Shown: positions 36,753 to 41,895 of the stretch, piece after piece
Numbering within the stretch: position 1 is the stretch's first letter
Layout: every line of letters begins with the position of its first letter
Source of the DNA: Halobaculum limi
Lineage (GTDB): Archaea; Halobacteriota; Halobacteria; Halobacteriales; Haloferacaceae
Direction: 5' to 3'
Length of the DNA stretch: 64,000 nucleotides
NCBI RefSeq assembly: GCF_029490015.1
Contig: NZ_CP120468.1
Coordinates: 2,790,001 to 2,854,000, forward strand
Translations under genes and position numbers: made by a program
The notes under the pieces: model-generated
What the model was told of the DNA's origin: nothing
The model's input: the letters and a program-made list of their open reading frames with translations, nothing else
Databases searched by the model: none

Positions 36753-38465
36753 ATGGACAGCCAGGGCACTCTCGATGGGGTCGACAGCGCCGACCCCGGA
36801 GCCGTCTTCGCGGACGGCGGACAGCCAGCGTGGTACCGCGACGCGGTGGTGTACAGCCTCGACGTGAAGACGTTTCAGGACAGCGACGGCGATGGCTGGG
36901 GAGACTTTCAGGGACTGATCGACCGTCTCGACTACCTCGAAGAGATTGGAGTCGACTGTCTGTGGGTCCGGCCGTTCTACCCGAGTCCGCTGCGCGACAA
37001 CGGCTACGACGTGGCCGACTACCGTGGCGTCGACGACCGGATGGGGTCGATGGACGACTTCGACCGCCTCGTCGACGAGATGGACGACCGCGGGATGCGC
37101 CTCATCACCGACCTCGTCCTCAACCACACCTCTGTCGACCACGAGTGGTTCCAGCGTGCCCGCGAAGACCCCGACTCGAAGTACCACGACTACTACCTGT
37201 GGACGAGTCACATCGACGACGCGTTCCACACGGAGAACATCTTCCCCGAGTTCGAGGACGGCGTGTGGTCGTACGACGAGGTCGCCGAGAAACACTACTT
37301 CCACCAGTTCTACAACCACCAACCCGACCTCAACGTCGCCAACCCCGAAGTCCAGGAGGAACTGTTCGACATCATCCAGTTCTGGCTGGAGCGTGGCGTC
37401 GACGGCTTCCGCATCGACGCCGCCCACCCGATGGTGCTCCCGAAGGGGCACAACGCTCACCGGATGGACGACCCGCAGTGGCTGTTCCGCGAGATGAAGC
37501 GCCGGGCCCGCGAAGTGAAAGACGACGCCGTCCTCCTCGCCGAGGCCGACGACGAACCCGACCACCTCGACTTCTACTTCGCTGGCGGCGACGGCTTCGA
37601 CGCCCTGTTCAACTTCGTCGGTAACTCCCACGTCACCTACGGCGTCGGCGTCGAGGACACGTGGCCGCTGCACCGGATGTTCGAGCAGATTCCGGACGGC
37701 GACCCCGACGGGCACGTCTGGTGGGCGAACTTCCTCCGGAACCACGACGAGTGGAACCTCCTGAAACTCCCACACGAGGCGCTCGAACACGCCCGCGAGG
37801 AGTTCCGCGAGGGCCACGGCGACGGGCGTGACTCGTGGATCTTCGGCCGCGGGCATCGCCTCCGACTGGCCGACCTGTACGACGGCGACCACGACCGCAT
37901 CGCGATGGCCCACAGCCTCCTGTTGGCGCTCCCGGGGACGCCCATCCTCTTTTCGGGCGACGAAATCGGGATGCACGCCGACCTCGACCTCCCCGAACGG
38001 CAGGCCGTCCGCACGCCGATGCGCTGGGACGGCAGCGAACCGAACGCGGGCTTCTCCTCGGCCGACGCCGACGAGTTGGTCATCCCCGTCGACGGCACCG
38101 GATGGCCGGGCGTGTTCCAGGCTGACGTGGCGAGTCAGCGCGGCGACGCCGACTCGCTGTTCGCCCGCGTCAGCCGCGCGGTCGAGGCGCGCAAGCGCGC
38201 ACCCGAGGTGAGTCGCGGCGACTTCGCTGTCGTCGACACCGACCCGAAGGAGGTGTGGGCCCACCGCTTCGACCACGACGGCGAGGTACTCCTCACCGTT
38301 CACAACTTCGCGGACGACCACCGCGAGGCGGTCGTCGGCTTCGACGTCGACCCCGACGACGCAGAGTGCGTCCTCGGTGACGCCGAGTTCACCGTCGCCG
38401 ACGGCGGCGTCTCCGTCTCGATGGACGGCTGTGACTACCTCTGGCTTCGCGGCGAGAAGCGATAG
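36753..38465 (+). CDS. GH13 family enzyme, trehalose synthase (TreS)-like
   Basis: A 570-residue alpha-amylase family enzyme. Catalytic residues are the nucleophile Asp222 (GFRIDAAHP), acid/base Glu264 (LLAEADDEP) and Asp332 (FLRNHDEWN). YPSPLRDNGYDVADY, LITDLVLNHTSVDHEW and RTPMRWDGSEPNAGFS are typical of maltose alpha-D-glucosyltransferase/trehalose synthase. Members interconvert maltose and trehalose; a hydrolase or sucrose-type activity remains possible. No signal peptide is present, so it is cytoplasmic. No trehalose or glycogen gene lies close by. Confidence 0.82.
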   Translation: MDSQGTLDGVDSADPGAVFADGGQPAWYRDAVVYSLDVKTFQDSDGDGWGDFQGLIDRLDYLEEIGVDCLWVRPFYPSPLRDNGYDVADYRGVDDRMGSMDDFDRLVDEMDDRGMRLITDLVLNHTSVDHEWFQRAREDPDSKYHDYYLWTSHIDDAFHTENIFPEFEDGVWSYDEVAEKHYFHQFYNHQPDLNVANPEVQEELFDIIQFWLERGVDGFRIDAAHPMVLPKGHNAHRMDDPQWLFREMKRRAREVKDDAVLLAEADDEPDHLDFYFAGGDGFDALFNFVGNSHVTYGVGVEDTWPLHRMFEQIPDGDPDGHVWWANFLRNHDEWNLLKLPHEALEHAREEFREGHGDGRDSWIFGRGHRLRLADLYDGDHDRIAMAHSLLLALPGTPILFSGDEIGMHADLDLPERQAVRTPMRWDGSEPNAGFSSADADELVIPVDGTGWPGVFQADVASQRGDADSLFARVSRAVEARKRAPEVSRGDFAVVDTDPKEVWAHRFDHDGEVLLTVHNFADDHREAVVGFDVDPDDAECVLGDAEFTVADGGVSVSMDGCDYLWLRGEKR

Positions 38466-38512: not shown

Positions 38513-40423
38513 TTACTCGCCCGCGTCGTCGGAACAGTCGTCGACGAGCGGTAGCCGCGCGACGACCGCCGCGCCGCCACCCGACGACTCCTCGTAGCGA
38601 ACCGTGCCGCCGGCGGCGTCGACCGACCACCGGACCAACCAGAGACCGATCCCCTGGCCGTGTTCGGTCGGCGTCTCCGCGCCGTATTCGAGGGGCGTTC
38701 TGCTGTCTGGAGTGACTCCCGGCCCGTCGTCGGCGACGCGCAACACGGCGTCGTCGCCGTCGACCGACAGCGACACCGTCACCGTCGGCGCTGGGACGTG
38801 TTCGAGTGCATTCGCGATCAGTTCCTCGACGGCGAGCATCAGCGGTGCGGCCCCCGAGACACAGACGCGTCGGTCTGGCAGCGACAGGCGTACCGCCGCG
38901 TCGTCGTTCGCGGCCGCCAGCCGAGCGGTGACCTCCTCGACGACCGCCGCCGCGTCGACGGCGTCGGCGTCCTCGATGTCGACGACGTCTTCGCGGAACT
39001 TCCGAGCGCTGTCCGAGAGGTCGAGGACGTCGAGAGCGGCCGTACGGATACGGTCCACGTCGGCACGGAGCGCCTCGACGTCGACGGTGTCGGTCTTCGC
39101 GTCGGGTCCGTCGCCGCCCGCGTACGCCTCGATGACACCATCGATGTGGTCGGCGTAGCCGAGGACGACGTTCAGGCGGTTGCGGATGTTGTGGCGCAAC
39201 ACCCGGTCGAGAACGGTCAGTCGCTGGTCGCGGGCCACCCGGTCGGTCACGTCCCGCTGGAAGCCGAGGTAGTGGGTCACCCCGCCGTCGTCGTTGCGGA
39301 TGGGCGAGATGTCCAGCGCGTTGTACCACATCCGCCCGTCCTCGCGGCGGTTCAACAACACGACCGACTCCTCCTCGCCCGCGTCGATCGCTCGTCGAAG
39401 CCGTGCGATCGACTCGACGTCGGTGGCGTCCGTCTGGAGGAGGCGGGGATTGTGTCCGAGGATCTGATCGTCGCCCAGCCCGGTGAGTCCCTTGAACGTG
39501 TTGTTGGCGTAGATGAGCGGTTCGTCGTCGTCGGTGTGGTCCGCGATGGTGATGCCGACCGTCGCCTCGTCCATCGCACGACGGTACAGCGCAAGTCGCT
39601 CCTCGCGTTCACGTCGCTCTCGGAGGTCGTGTGCGACCACTTGTACGTCGCCCTCACCCACGTCGATAGTCGTCATTTCGACCGGGACCGGCCGAGAGTC
39701 GGCTGGCCCAGTCGTCGACGACGCGGCAGAGTCGTCGGCCACGCCGCCGTCGGTGTCGCTGATCACTGCTCGCGTCAGCGTCGTCTCGATGGGGCCACCC
39801 CGTCCCGCGGTGCCCGCGGCGGTCAGCGCCGCCGTGACCGCGTCGGCGTCGACCGCCGGCACGAGGTCGGCGAGTGGCCGGCCCTCCAGCGTCGACGGCT
39901 CGACCGCCAGCAACGACTCCGCCGCGGGGTTCGCGTACGTCACGACGCCATCTCGACAGACGAACACCGCGTCCGGGAGGTGTCTGACCAGTCGTTCGAG
40001 GCGGTCGCGACTCGCGGCCAGTTCCGTCGACAGCGAGCGTGCGCGTGCGAGCGCTCGAAGCCGTCGTGCCAGCGCCGCCTGCCGGATGGGCGCGGCGACC
40101 GTCTCGTCGACGTGGTCGCCTGCGGAGTCCAGTCGTGCCAGCGCCGCGCCGGGGTCACCGAACCGCTCGGCCACGTACAACAGCGTCGGGTGGTACGTCG
40201 ACGTCGACTTCCGATACGCCGAGAGTGCGTCGCCGTGCGCCCGCGTACCGTCCACGTCGAGGAGACACACGTCGAAGTCACCAGCGAAGGGGTCGGCGTC
40301 CGTCTCCGGGACCCGCGGCGTGAATCCGTCGGACTCGGTCAGCCAGCGGTAGAGCAGGTCGCGGTCCGATCGCCCGTCGAAGACGAGGAGGACAGACAGG
40401 TCGTCCGAAGACGGGTTAGACAT
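38513..40423 (-). CDS. Histidine kinase with degenerate receiver, PAS and Cys-less LOV-like domains
   Basis: A 636-residue cytoplasmic sensor kinase. Order: receiver-like N-terminus (1-130, Asp56 kept in CLLDVDG but the usual Lys replaced in AAPI); PAS (~145-200); LOV-like PAS (~285-400) with ANNTFKGLTG and GHNPRLLQ, where Pro326 replaces the flavin-bonding Cys of LOV domains; HisKA-like helix with His411 (LRHNIRNRLNV); intact HATPase with EELIANALEH, DDGPGV and HGQGIGL. It should autophosphorylate. Its ATG region overlaps the stop of the deleted KaiC-like gene by 8 bases, so the two form one unit. Confidence 0.85.
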   Translation of the reverse strand: MSNPSSDDLSVLLVFDGRSDRDLLYRWLTESDGFTPRVPETDADPFAGDFDVCLLDVDGTRAHGDALSAYRKSTSTYHPTLLYVAERFGDPGAALARLDSAGDHVDETVAAPIRQAALARRLRALARARSLSTELAASRDRLERLVRHLPDAVFVCRDGVVTYANPAAESLLAVEPSTLEGRPLADLVPAVDADAVTAALTAAGTAGRGGPIETTLTRAVISDTDGGVADDSAASSTTGPADSRPVPVEMTTIDVGEGDVQVVAHDLRERREREERLALYRRAMDEATVGITIADHTDDDEPLIYANNTFKGLTGLGDDQILGHNPRLLQTDATDVESIARLRRAIDAGEEESVVLLNRREDGRMWYNALDISPIRNDDGGVTHYLGFQRDVTDRVARDQRLTVLDRVLRHNIRNRLNVVLGYADHIDGVIEAYAGGDGPDAKTDTVDVEALRADVDRIRTAALDVLDLSDSARKFREDVVDIEDADAVDAAAVVEEVTARLAAANDDAAVRLSLPDRRVCVSGAAPLMLAVEELIANALEHVPAPTVTVSLSVDGDDAVLRVADDGPGVTPDSRTPLEYGAETPTEHGQGIGLWLVRWSVDAAGGTVRYEESSGGGAAVVARLPLVDDCSDDAGE

Positions 40424-40790
40424 CGGTGACCGGTAGTGTGCCCGTGTGCCTGCGACGGAGTCGCGCCGTCGGTTCGCCGAGCGTGCTGCCGTCTTCGCTG
40501 GTCTGGAACTCCCGAAGCGTCCGCTCGACGGCTCCGGTCCGACGCTTCAGGACGCCAACCGTCGCTCGGAGGTCGTACGTGTGTTCCAGATAGCGGCCAA
40601 ATGGGGTCAGTTCCGCGAAGCCAACGAACAGTGCGGGTCCGTCGCTCGCGGCGAGAAACGGTAGCCAGAAGATGGTCTTCCCCCTCCCAGTGACACCACG
40701 GATTATAGATGCACGCTCCGGAATGTCCTCCCCGTCAAGGAGGGTATCGAGCCCCGGAACGCCCGGATCGATCCGTGTGCCACGTTCCAT
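40416..40790 (-). CDS. Internally deleted KaiC/RadA-like ATPase, 124 residues
   Basis: The first 62 residues match the start of haloarchaeal KaiC-like RecA-fold proteins: GVPGLDTLLDG, then Walker A in RGVTGRGKTIF (residues 31-41) and GPALFVGFAE. From about residue 74 the text switches to the C-terminal end of the same fold: RATVGVLKRRTGAVERTLRE, then GEPTARLRRRHTGTLP. About 110-120 residues, including Walker B and the catalytic Glu, are missing without a frameshift. A TATA box and a leaderless start are intact. It overlaps the kinase gene by 8 bases. It may be decaying, or it may be a non-hydrolytic partner of the kinase. Confidence 0.7.
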   Translation of the reverse strand: MERGTRIDPGVPGLDTLLDGEDIPERASIIRGVTGRGKTIFWLPFLAASDGPALFVGFAELTPFGRYLEHTYDLRATVGVLKRRTGAVERTLREFQTSEDGSTLGEPTARLRRRHTGTLPVTDV

Positions 40791-40812
40791 AGCAGACTGT
40801 GGGCGAGTGAAC

Positions 40813-40818
40813 TATATA
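40813..40818 (-). promoter_or_regulatory. TATA box for the KaiC-like/histidine kinase pair
   Basis: TATATA on the minus strand (in GTTATATAGTT), centred about 26 bases before the ATG at 40,790. This is one of the clearest promoters in the window and suggests a leaderless transcript. Confidence 0.5.
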
Positions 40819-40926
40819 ACAGAGAGGGAAGCGCTCACCCGGAGACTCCGTCAGTCGTTGGTCGGCAGACAGCGATTCGGTGGCCGGGTCTCGTTCGTTC
40901 GGCGTCGACACCCGACGACTGCCAGT

Positions 40927-41895
40927 CTACACCTCGACCGGGTCGCCCTCGGAGTCGAAGATGGCGTCGACGACACGCTGTACGGCCGTCGCCTCTGCGA
41001 ACGAGACGAGGTCGCCGTCGCCGCCCTCCAGTTCGGTCACGAACTCGTCGACGAGCGTCACCGTCGTCGACTCACGGTCGGCACACAGTTCCTCCTCGTC
41101 GTCTGTGCCGGGGTCGGCGGTCAGCCGGAACCACTCGGTCAGCGTGAGTTCACCCTCGCTCCCGGTGACGGTGATGGCGTTCTCCTCGGGTTGCTCGTGA
41201 TCACACAGGAGGTCGATGGTACCGTGGACCGAGTCGTCACCGGCCGTCTCGAACCAGCCGACGACCGACTCCTCACAGGCGTCGGGGCCGGCGTACTGGA
41301 CTTCGGCGCTCACGCGGTCGATGCCGCCGAACGCCTCCTGGACGCCGAACAGGAAGTGCGTGCCCACCTCGCGGATTGGACCACCCTGCTCGCGCGAGCG
41401 AAGCCAGTCGACGTCCTGCCACTCACGAGGCCACCGCGGGAACCGGAAGTCCAGCGAGACGCGCTTGGGCGTGCCAATCTCGCCGTCGGCGACCCGTTCG
41501 CGGAGTTCGATGAACCCCGGCGTGTAGCGGAACGGGAGGTTCACGGCCGTCACGAGGTCGGTGTCGGCCTCACGAGCGGCGAGTCGCTCGCCCTCCGCGG
41601 CATCCTCTGCGATCGGTTTCTCACAGATGACGTGGACGCCGGCGTCGAGTCCGGCCTCCGCGATTTCGCGGTGGTGAACCGGCGGCACCCCGGCGTAGAG
41701 GATATCGAGGTCGGCCTCCGCCAGCATCGCCTCGTGGTCCGTGTAGGGGTCGGCGTCGTAGTCGGCGGCGAACGACTCCGCTCGCTCGACGTCGACGTCG
41801 CAGGCGGCCGCGACGGTCGTGTCCGAATGCTCGGTGAACGATTCTGCGAGTCGACTACCGATGACGCCACAGCCGACGATGCCCACGTCGTACAT
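40927..41895 (-). CDS. Gfo/Idh/MocA family oxidoreductase
   Basis: A 322-residue NAD(P)-dependent dehydrogenase. It starts MYDVGIVGCGVIGSRLAESF at 41,895 (Rossmann glycine motif GCGVIG), includes the signature EKPIAEDAAEGERLA (residues ~92-107) with Lys-Pro, and LDFRFPRWPREWQDVDWLRS in the substrate domain. Such enzymes oxidise sugars, inositols or related polyols. No sugar pathway gene is adjacent, so the substrate is open. Stops cleanly after a coding frame; the longer open frame upstream does not look coding. Confidence 0.88.
   Translation of the reverse strand: MYDVGIVGCGVIGSRLAESFTEHSDTTVAAACDVDVERAESFAADYDADPYTDHEAMLAEADLDILYAGVPPVHHREIAEAGLDAGVHVICEKPIAEDAAEGERLAAREADTDLVTAVNLPFRYTPGFIELRERVADGEIGTPKRVSLDFRFPRWPREWQDVDWLRSREQGGPIREVGTHFLFGVQEAFGGIDRVSAEVQYAGPDACEESVVGWFETAGDDSVHGTIDLLCDHEQPEENAITVTGSEGELTLTEWFRLTADPGTDDEEELCADRESTTVTLVDEFVTELEGGDGDLVSFAEATAVQRVVDAIFDSEGDPVEV

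Follow-up and report, generated by a model that had tools for sequence, protein, structure and literature searches.

The KaiC superfamily has been described as a hub of archaeal signal transduction (Makarova et al. 2017, as far as it is cited in PMC5847659). It is also known that in Haloferax volcanii overlaps of four and eight nucleotides are common and that translational coupling fails beyond about 20 nucleotides (PMC10666635; PMC6728339). The same species has 62 gene pairs with an overlap of eight nucleotides; a distance between -8 and +10 nt is regarded as a predictor of termination-reinitiation, and the terminal 15 nt of an upstream gene are enough for coupling in E. coli (PMC10666635). 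Concerning sensor domains, haloarchaeal BAT has a flavin-binding LOV domain of the Pro type, whose response is a photoreduction (Yee et al. 2015, PMC4682037). In the portion of the literature that was covered, nothing was found on Halobaculum together with KaiC, nor anything relevant on pseudogene remnants serving as coupled leaders.

The window analysed here is the whole stretch of 64,000 nucleotides from the genome of Halobaculum limi (G000), which was compared with the other Halobaculum genomes (G001 to G010; 11 in the genus set). It harbors a 124-codon frame located immediately upstream of a histidine kinase gene (Table 1), which almost certainly derives from the gene of a double-domain KaiC-type ATPase by an in-frame deletion. 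The preliminary description had assigned both ends of this frame to KaiC and had recognised its Walker A motif, and the alignment with the orthologs bears this out: residues 1 to about 60 correspond to the N-terminus of domain 1, and residues from about 61 to 124 to the C-terminus of domain 2, both parts being gap-free. An intact KaiC paralog of the same genome was matched by residues 4-60 and 59-123 at two places lying far apart in its 488-aa frame (tblastn). The full-length orthologs, located directly upstream of the orthologous kinase in G001, G002, G009 and G010, are without exception double-domain proteins of 478 aa. The internal in-frame deletion first proposed is therefore real, even though its size is not the 110-120 residues then assumed; about 354 residues (about 1.06 kb) are missing, i.e., about 74% of the parent protein, with a junction that is not placeable to the exact base. 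A single-domain KaiC parent having lost 110-120 residues was thus ruled out.

Table 1. Features of the kaiC remnant-kinase locus and their positions in the window
Feature	Position	Strand	Basis or remarks
Alpha-amylase/trehalose-synthase-like gene, downstream syntenic	36753..38465	+	Synteny; name by sequence inspection
Histidine kinase, 636 aa	38513..40423	-	Receiver-like N-terminus, PAS, LOV-like PAS (Pro326), HN box, HATPase_c
LOV-like motif NPRLLQ (canonical NCRFLQ)	39434..39451	-	Pro in 9/9 Halobaculum orthologs
8-nt overlap of remnant stop and kinase ATG, ATGTCTAA	40416..40423	-	Orthologs ATGACTGA/ATGAGTGA
KaiC remnant, 124 aa	40416..40790	-	Own paralog and orthologs each matched as two distinct segments (tblastn); alignment to 478-aa orthologs
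Walker A GVTGRGKT, remnant residues 32-39	40674..40697	-	Orthologs GGAGTGKT, GSPGTGKT or GAPGTGKT
TATA-like box TTATATAG, 29 nt before remnant ATG	40812..40819	-	TTAAGTA-like boxes at the same position in eight congeners
Gfo/Idh-type oxidoreductase, upstream syntenic	40927..41874	-	Start approximate; synteny; name by sequence inspection

The deletion removed domain 1 past residue 60 or so, including the Walker B region, as well as almost the whole of domain 2, its own Walker A included. In place of the required pair of RecA-like P-loop domains, 124 of about 478 residues are left. The Pfam KaiC profile (PF06745) matches residues 10-60 only and scores 24.9 bits, below its cut-off of 26.6. The residues of the domain 1 Walker A are intact, and the conserved EE pair is broken (E59 replaced by A). 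The same junction was not found a second time in 11 genus, 170 family and 392 order genomes. The G000 genome also contains an intact full-length KaiC paralog (G000:C1:47210-51585, L069), about 50% identical to the KaiC of G010 and adjoined by a PAS-type kinase frame.

As for the surroundings, the loci of G001, G002, G009 and G010 show neighbour blocks drawn from MaoC, Gfo/Idh, KaiC, kinase, amylase and PCMT genes (named by reading the sequences). Among the related loci that were read in other genera, most have KaiC immediately before a related kinase and in the same orientation; three, all from genus g23, carry it on the strand opposite to the kinase, and in a few no KaiC was seen within the flank examined.

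Within Halobaculum, four species keep a full kaiC at the same syntenic site, and four others have lost it, leaving short frames: the gene has been reduced to 60, 38, 35 and 16 codons in G005, G008, G003 and G007, respectively, the kinase being kept in all four. By eye, traces of KaiC were recognised in G005 (the start), G008 (the start, and the end out of frame) and G007 (the end, out of frame), and the G003 locus has no recognisable KaiC sequence. No kinase ortholog at this level was found in G004 and G006. In the kinase tree, G008 and then G007 are successive branches beside the full-length pair G001 and G002, with G000, G003 and G005 placed elsewhere. Since G007 and G008 branch separately from this pair, kaiC was lost three times or more within Halobaculum, provided that it was never regained and with the count resting on a single-gene (kinase) tree in which some forks are weak. 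In G003 (Halobaculum litoreum; L034/L062), the frame of the kinase breaks after about residue 505 and the HATPase part lies in another frame, which may represent either true decay or a sequencing error.

Similar remnants were disclosed in a second genus (g10). G042 harbors a well conserved 123-aa frame (L096:1276-1644, + strand) in which domain 1 through Walker A is joined to the C-terminus of domain 2, and G044 a 53-aa remnant of the KaiC C-terminus (L143, minus strand, about 2013-1853). Each of them overlaps by eight nucleotides an orthologous stand-alone receiver-like gene adjoining mutL. The junction of the 123-aa frame differs from that of the 124-aa remnant and is likewise a singleton.

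The start and the end of the short frames are more uniform than their interiors. A TATA-like box is located 28-30 nt upstream of the first ATG in all nine Halobaculum loci, the one in the window having already been pointed out in the preliminary description. In the same nine loci, the stop codon of the first frame overlaps the ATG of the kinase, by eight nucleotides in the four full-length genes, G000 and G005, and by four in G003, G007 and G008; in the last two, a frameshift has left the C-terminal part of KaiC out of frame. The 8-nt stop is absent from G003 and G007, which use the 4-nt one, and the 4-nt stop is absent from G000, which uses the 8-nt one. The 8-nt overlap with the kinase had been correctly noted at the outset, together with the coupling; the word "fused" then used is not appropriate, the two genes being adjacent and overlapping. 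Under a null of shuffled interiors and a random frame, a correct overlap is expected in every one of the five deleted lineages with a probability of about 0.001, or about 0.02 if G000 is left out; to G000, which has a former coding frame, this null does not do justice. These post hoc statistics of coupling are modest.

On the basis of this anatomy, the remnant is most likely a leader that couples translation to the kinase rather than a partner protein, a reading in which we place moderate confidence. The ancestral arrangement would have been a haloarchaeal operon in which a single promoter just upstream of kaiC served two genes, the first for a double-domain KaiC-like ATPase and the second for a PAS/LOV-type histidine kinase. 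In G000, the deletion took most of both KaiC domains, and what was left of KaiC, presumably no longer functional, is drifting in sequence. Having its own start codon and a stop codon that reaches into the kinase start, the remnant would still be a translated upstream cistron, and ribosomes terminating at its stop might reinitiate on the ATG of the kinase. The same erosion took place at least three times in Halobaculum and again in the second genus, leaving each time a short frame with a 4- or 8-nt overlap. The promoter and the coupled frame of a dead KaiC might thus persist because they bring ribosomes to the kinase, which is the best reading of the locus. Taken as a whole, this explanation appears reasonably probable. 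As a counterpoint, overlap and promoter could simply have been inherited, and not maintained.

This counterpoint is at the core of the main alternative, i.e., that the remnant is a plain pseudogene in passive decay, that the short frames of the congeners are inherited debris as well and that the kinase is initiated independently. Several data are in agreement with it. Selection on the remnant is relaxed relative to the orthologs: under a two-omega codon model custom-written for this analysis, the omega of its branch is 0.407 vs 0.092 elsewhere (2dlnL 13.0), an omega fixed at 1 being rejected only weakly (2dlnL 4.5). In addition, 37 of the 87 positions that are invariant in the four orthologs have changed (43%, including Q44P and the replacement of E59), vs 2, 3, 12 and 3 changes in 89-99 positions when each ortholog in turn is left out as a control; GC3 has fallen to 0.70 from the 0.82-0.94 of the orthologs, and GC2 has risen. 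The KaiC function of the remnant has very probably been lost. Its frame is open, with neither stops nor frameshifts, and the preliminary description had opposed this intactness to decay; however, in simulations of neutral drift at this GC a 124-codon frame remains stop-free with a probability of about 0.2-0.45, hence the open frame is not in itself significant and, as a sign of function, was ruled out. The G003 locus, with its frameshifted kinase and no recognisable KaiC, and the two genomes devoid of the kinase ortholog also speak for passive decay. On the other hand, this alternative does not readily account for the retention of ATG, TATA spacing and kinase-overlapping stop in 9/9 loci in spite of different frame histories, for the low chance of such overlaps (about 0.02-0.001) or for the recurrence of the pattern in a second genus, and we regard it as possible but on balance unlikely. 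Among the signs of a pseudogene, the preliminary description had named a full gene in close relatives and a deletion confined to this genome, both of which were found (four congeners; the 124-aa form in G000 only), and a dN/dS near 1, whereas the observed value is relaxed but below 1. The intermediate omega might be due to early constraint followed by neutrality, since part of the branch would predate the deletion; some constraint on the remnant may also exist. The kinase stays under normal purifying selection, with an omega of 0.157 vs 0.191 elsewhere (no difference, 2dlnL 0.76) and an omega of 1 strongly rejected.

A compact P-loop protein that binds nucleotides without hydrolysing them and regulates the kinase made along with it, as first suggested for the 124-aa product, finds little place in this picture, the remnant being under the relaxed selection described above. 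According to this suggestion, the product, like the 123-aa form of G042, would bind nucleotide or the kinase and tune the latter in cis; if true, a minimal KaiC would have been formed by joining both ends of a double-domain protein. The intact Walker A residues, the branch omega lower than 1 and the better conserved form of the other genus, which also combines Walker A with the domain 2 C-terminus, point in this direction. Nevertheless, the 124-aa form is unique to G000 among all the genus, family and order genomes searched, nearly half of the invariant positions have been lost, the congeners dispense with such a protein, and AlphaFold2 gives the remnant no fold (mean pLDDT 34, from a shallow alignment). 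A full-length ortholog used as a control reached a mean pLDDT of 50, and near 70 in the P-loop region, from a similarly shallow alignment, the comparison being a weak one. Such a function, and the tuning in cis that would follow from it, is therefore very doubtful. Lastly, a spurious deletion due to an error of assembly or sequencing, which a singleton junction might recall, is hardly credible, as the locus lies inside a 3.05-Mb contig, congeners carry other deletions at the same place, and the flanking residues, before as well as after the junction, are far diverged from the orthologs, which indicates an old deletion.

Turning to the kinase, its domain architecture is the one first described: Pfam recognises two PAS domains and an intact HATPase_c, preceded by the receiver-like N-terminus, and the adduct-forming Cys of the LOV-like motif is replaced by Pro326. 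In the receiver-like part (residues 1 to about 130), inspection revealed a conserved FDVCLLD and, apparently, no usual C-terminal Lys (VAAPI), so that the N-terminus of the kinase may be a pseudo-receiver. The same Pro-for-Cys replacement occurs in relatives from g11, g14, g16, g21 and g24, beside a full-length or near full-length KaiC, and the Cys is kept in those from g12, g17, g19, g23 and g26. Being shared by relatives with a full-length KaiC, the replacement is older than the kaiC deletion and unrelated to it; a Cys-less LOV as a consequence of the deletion, or as a partner to it, was ruled out on the same grounds. Concerning the Asn/Asn/Gln flavin contacts, assigned by motif only, LLNRREDG and GFQRDVT are present and the N of WYNALDI is visible. 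Since the BAT domain undergoes flavin photoreduction without the Cys, the kinase could have remained a sensor of redox or light. In genus g19 (L105, L108, L110, L112, L113 and L118), a full-length or near full-length KaiC is located directly upstream of a LOV kinase with NCRFLQ or NCRILQ, which makes this pair a candidate blue-light KaiC module.

The Halobaculum loci represent a natural deletion series within one genus (478, 124, 60, 38, 35 and 16 codons), which could serve to test whether translational coupling limits the ways in which the genes of an operon die. Since a KaiC-family regulator has been lost repeatedly and the kinase has usually been kept, the series suggests that the kinase can work without KaiC; moreover, the function of a protein may disappear while its gene persists as a short leader frame.

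When compared with known systems, the locus resembles the haloarchaeal double-domain KaiC-like ATPases located beside sensor kinases, both ends of the remnant being clearly homologous to them and the gene order conserved; it differs from them in that the remnant has neither Walker B nor the P-loop of domain 2 and has lost one residue of the EE pair. The LOV-like domain shares the lack of Cys with that of BAT, but it is embedded in a histidine kinase beside KaiC and its flavin binding is putative. Finally, the co-directed genes with their 8- or 4-nt overlap and haloarchaeal spacings resemble the pairs known to undergo termination-reinitiation (Huber et al. 2019, PMC6728339; PMC10666635), with the difference that the upstream cistron is here an eroded and apparently non-functional remnant, in some species just 16-60 codons long.
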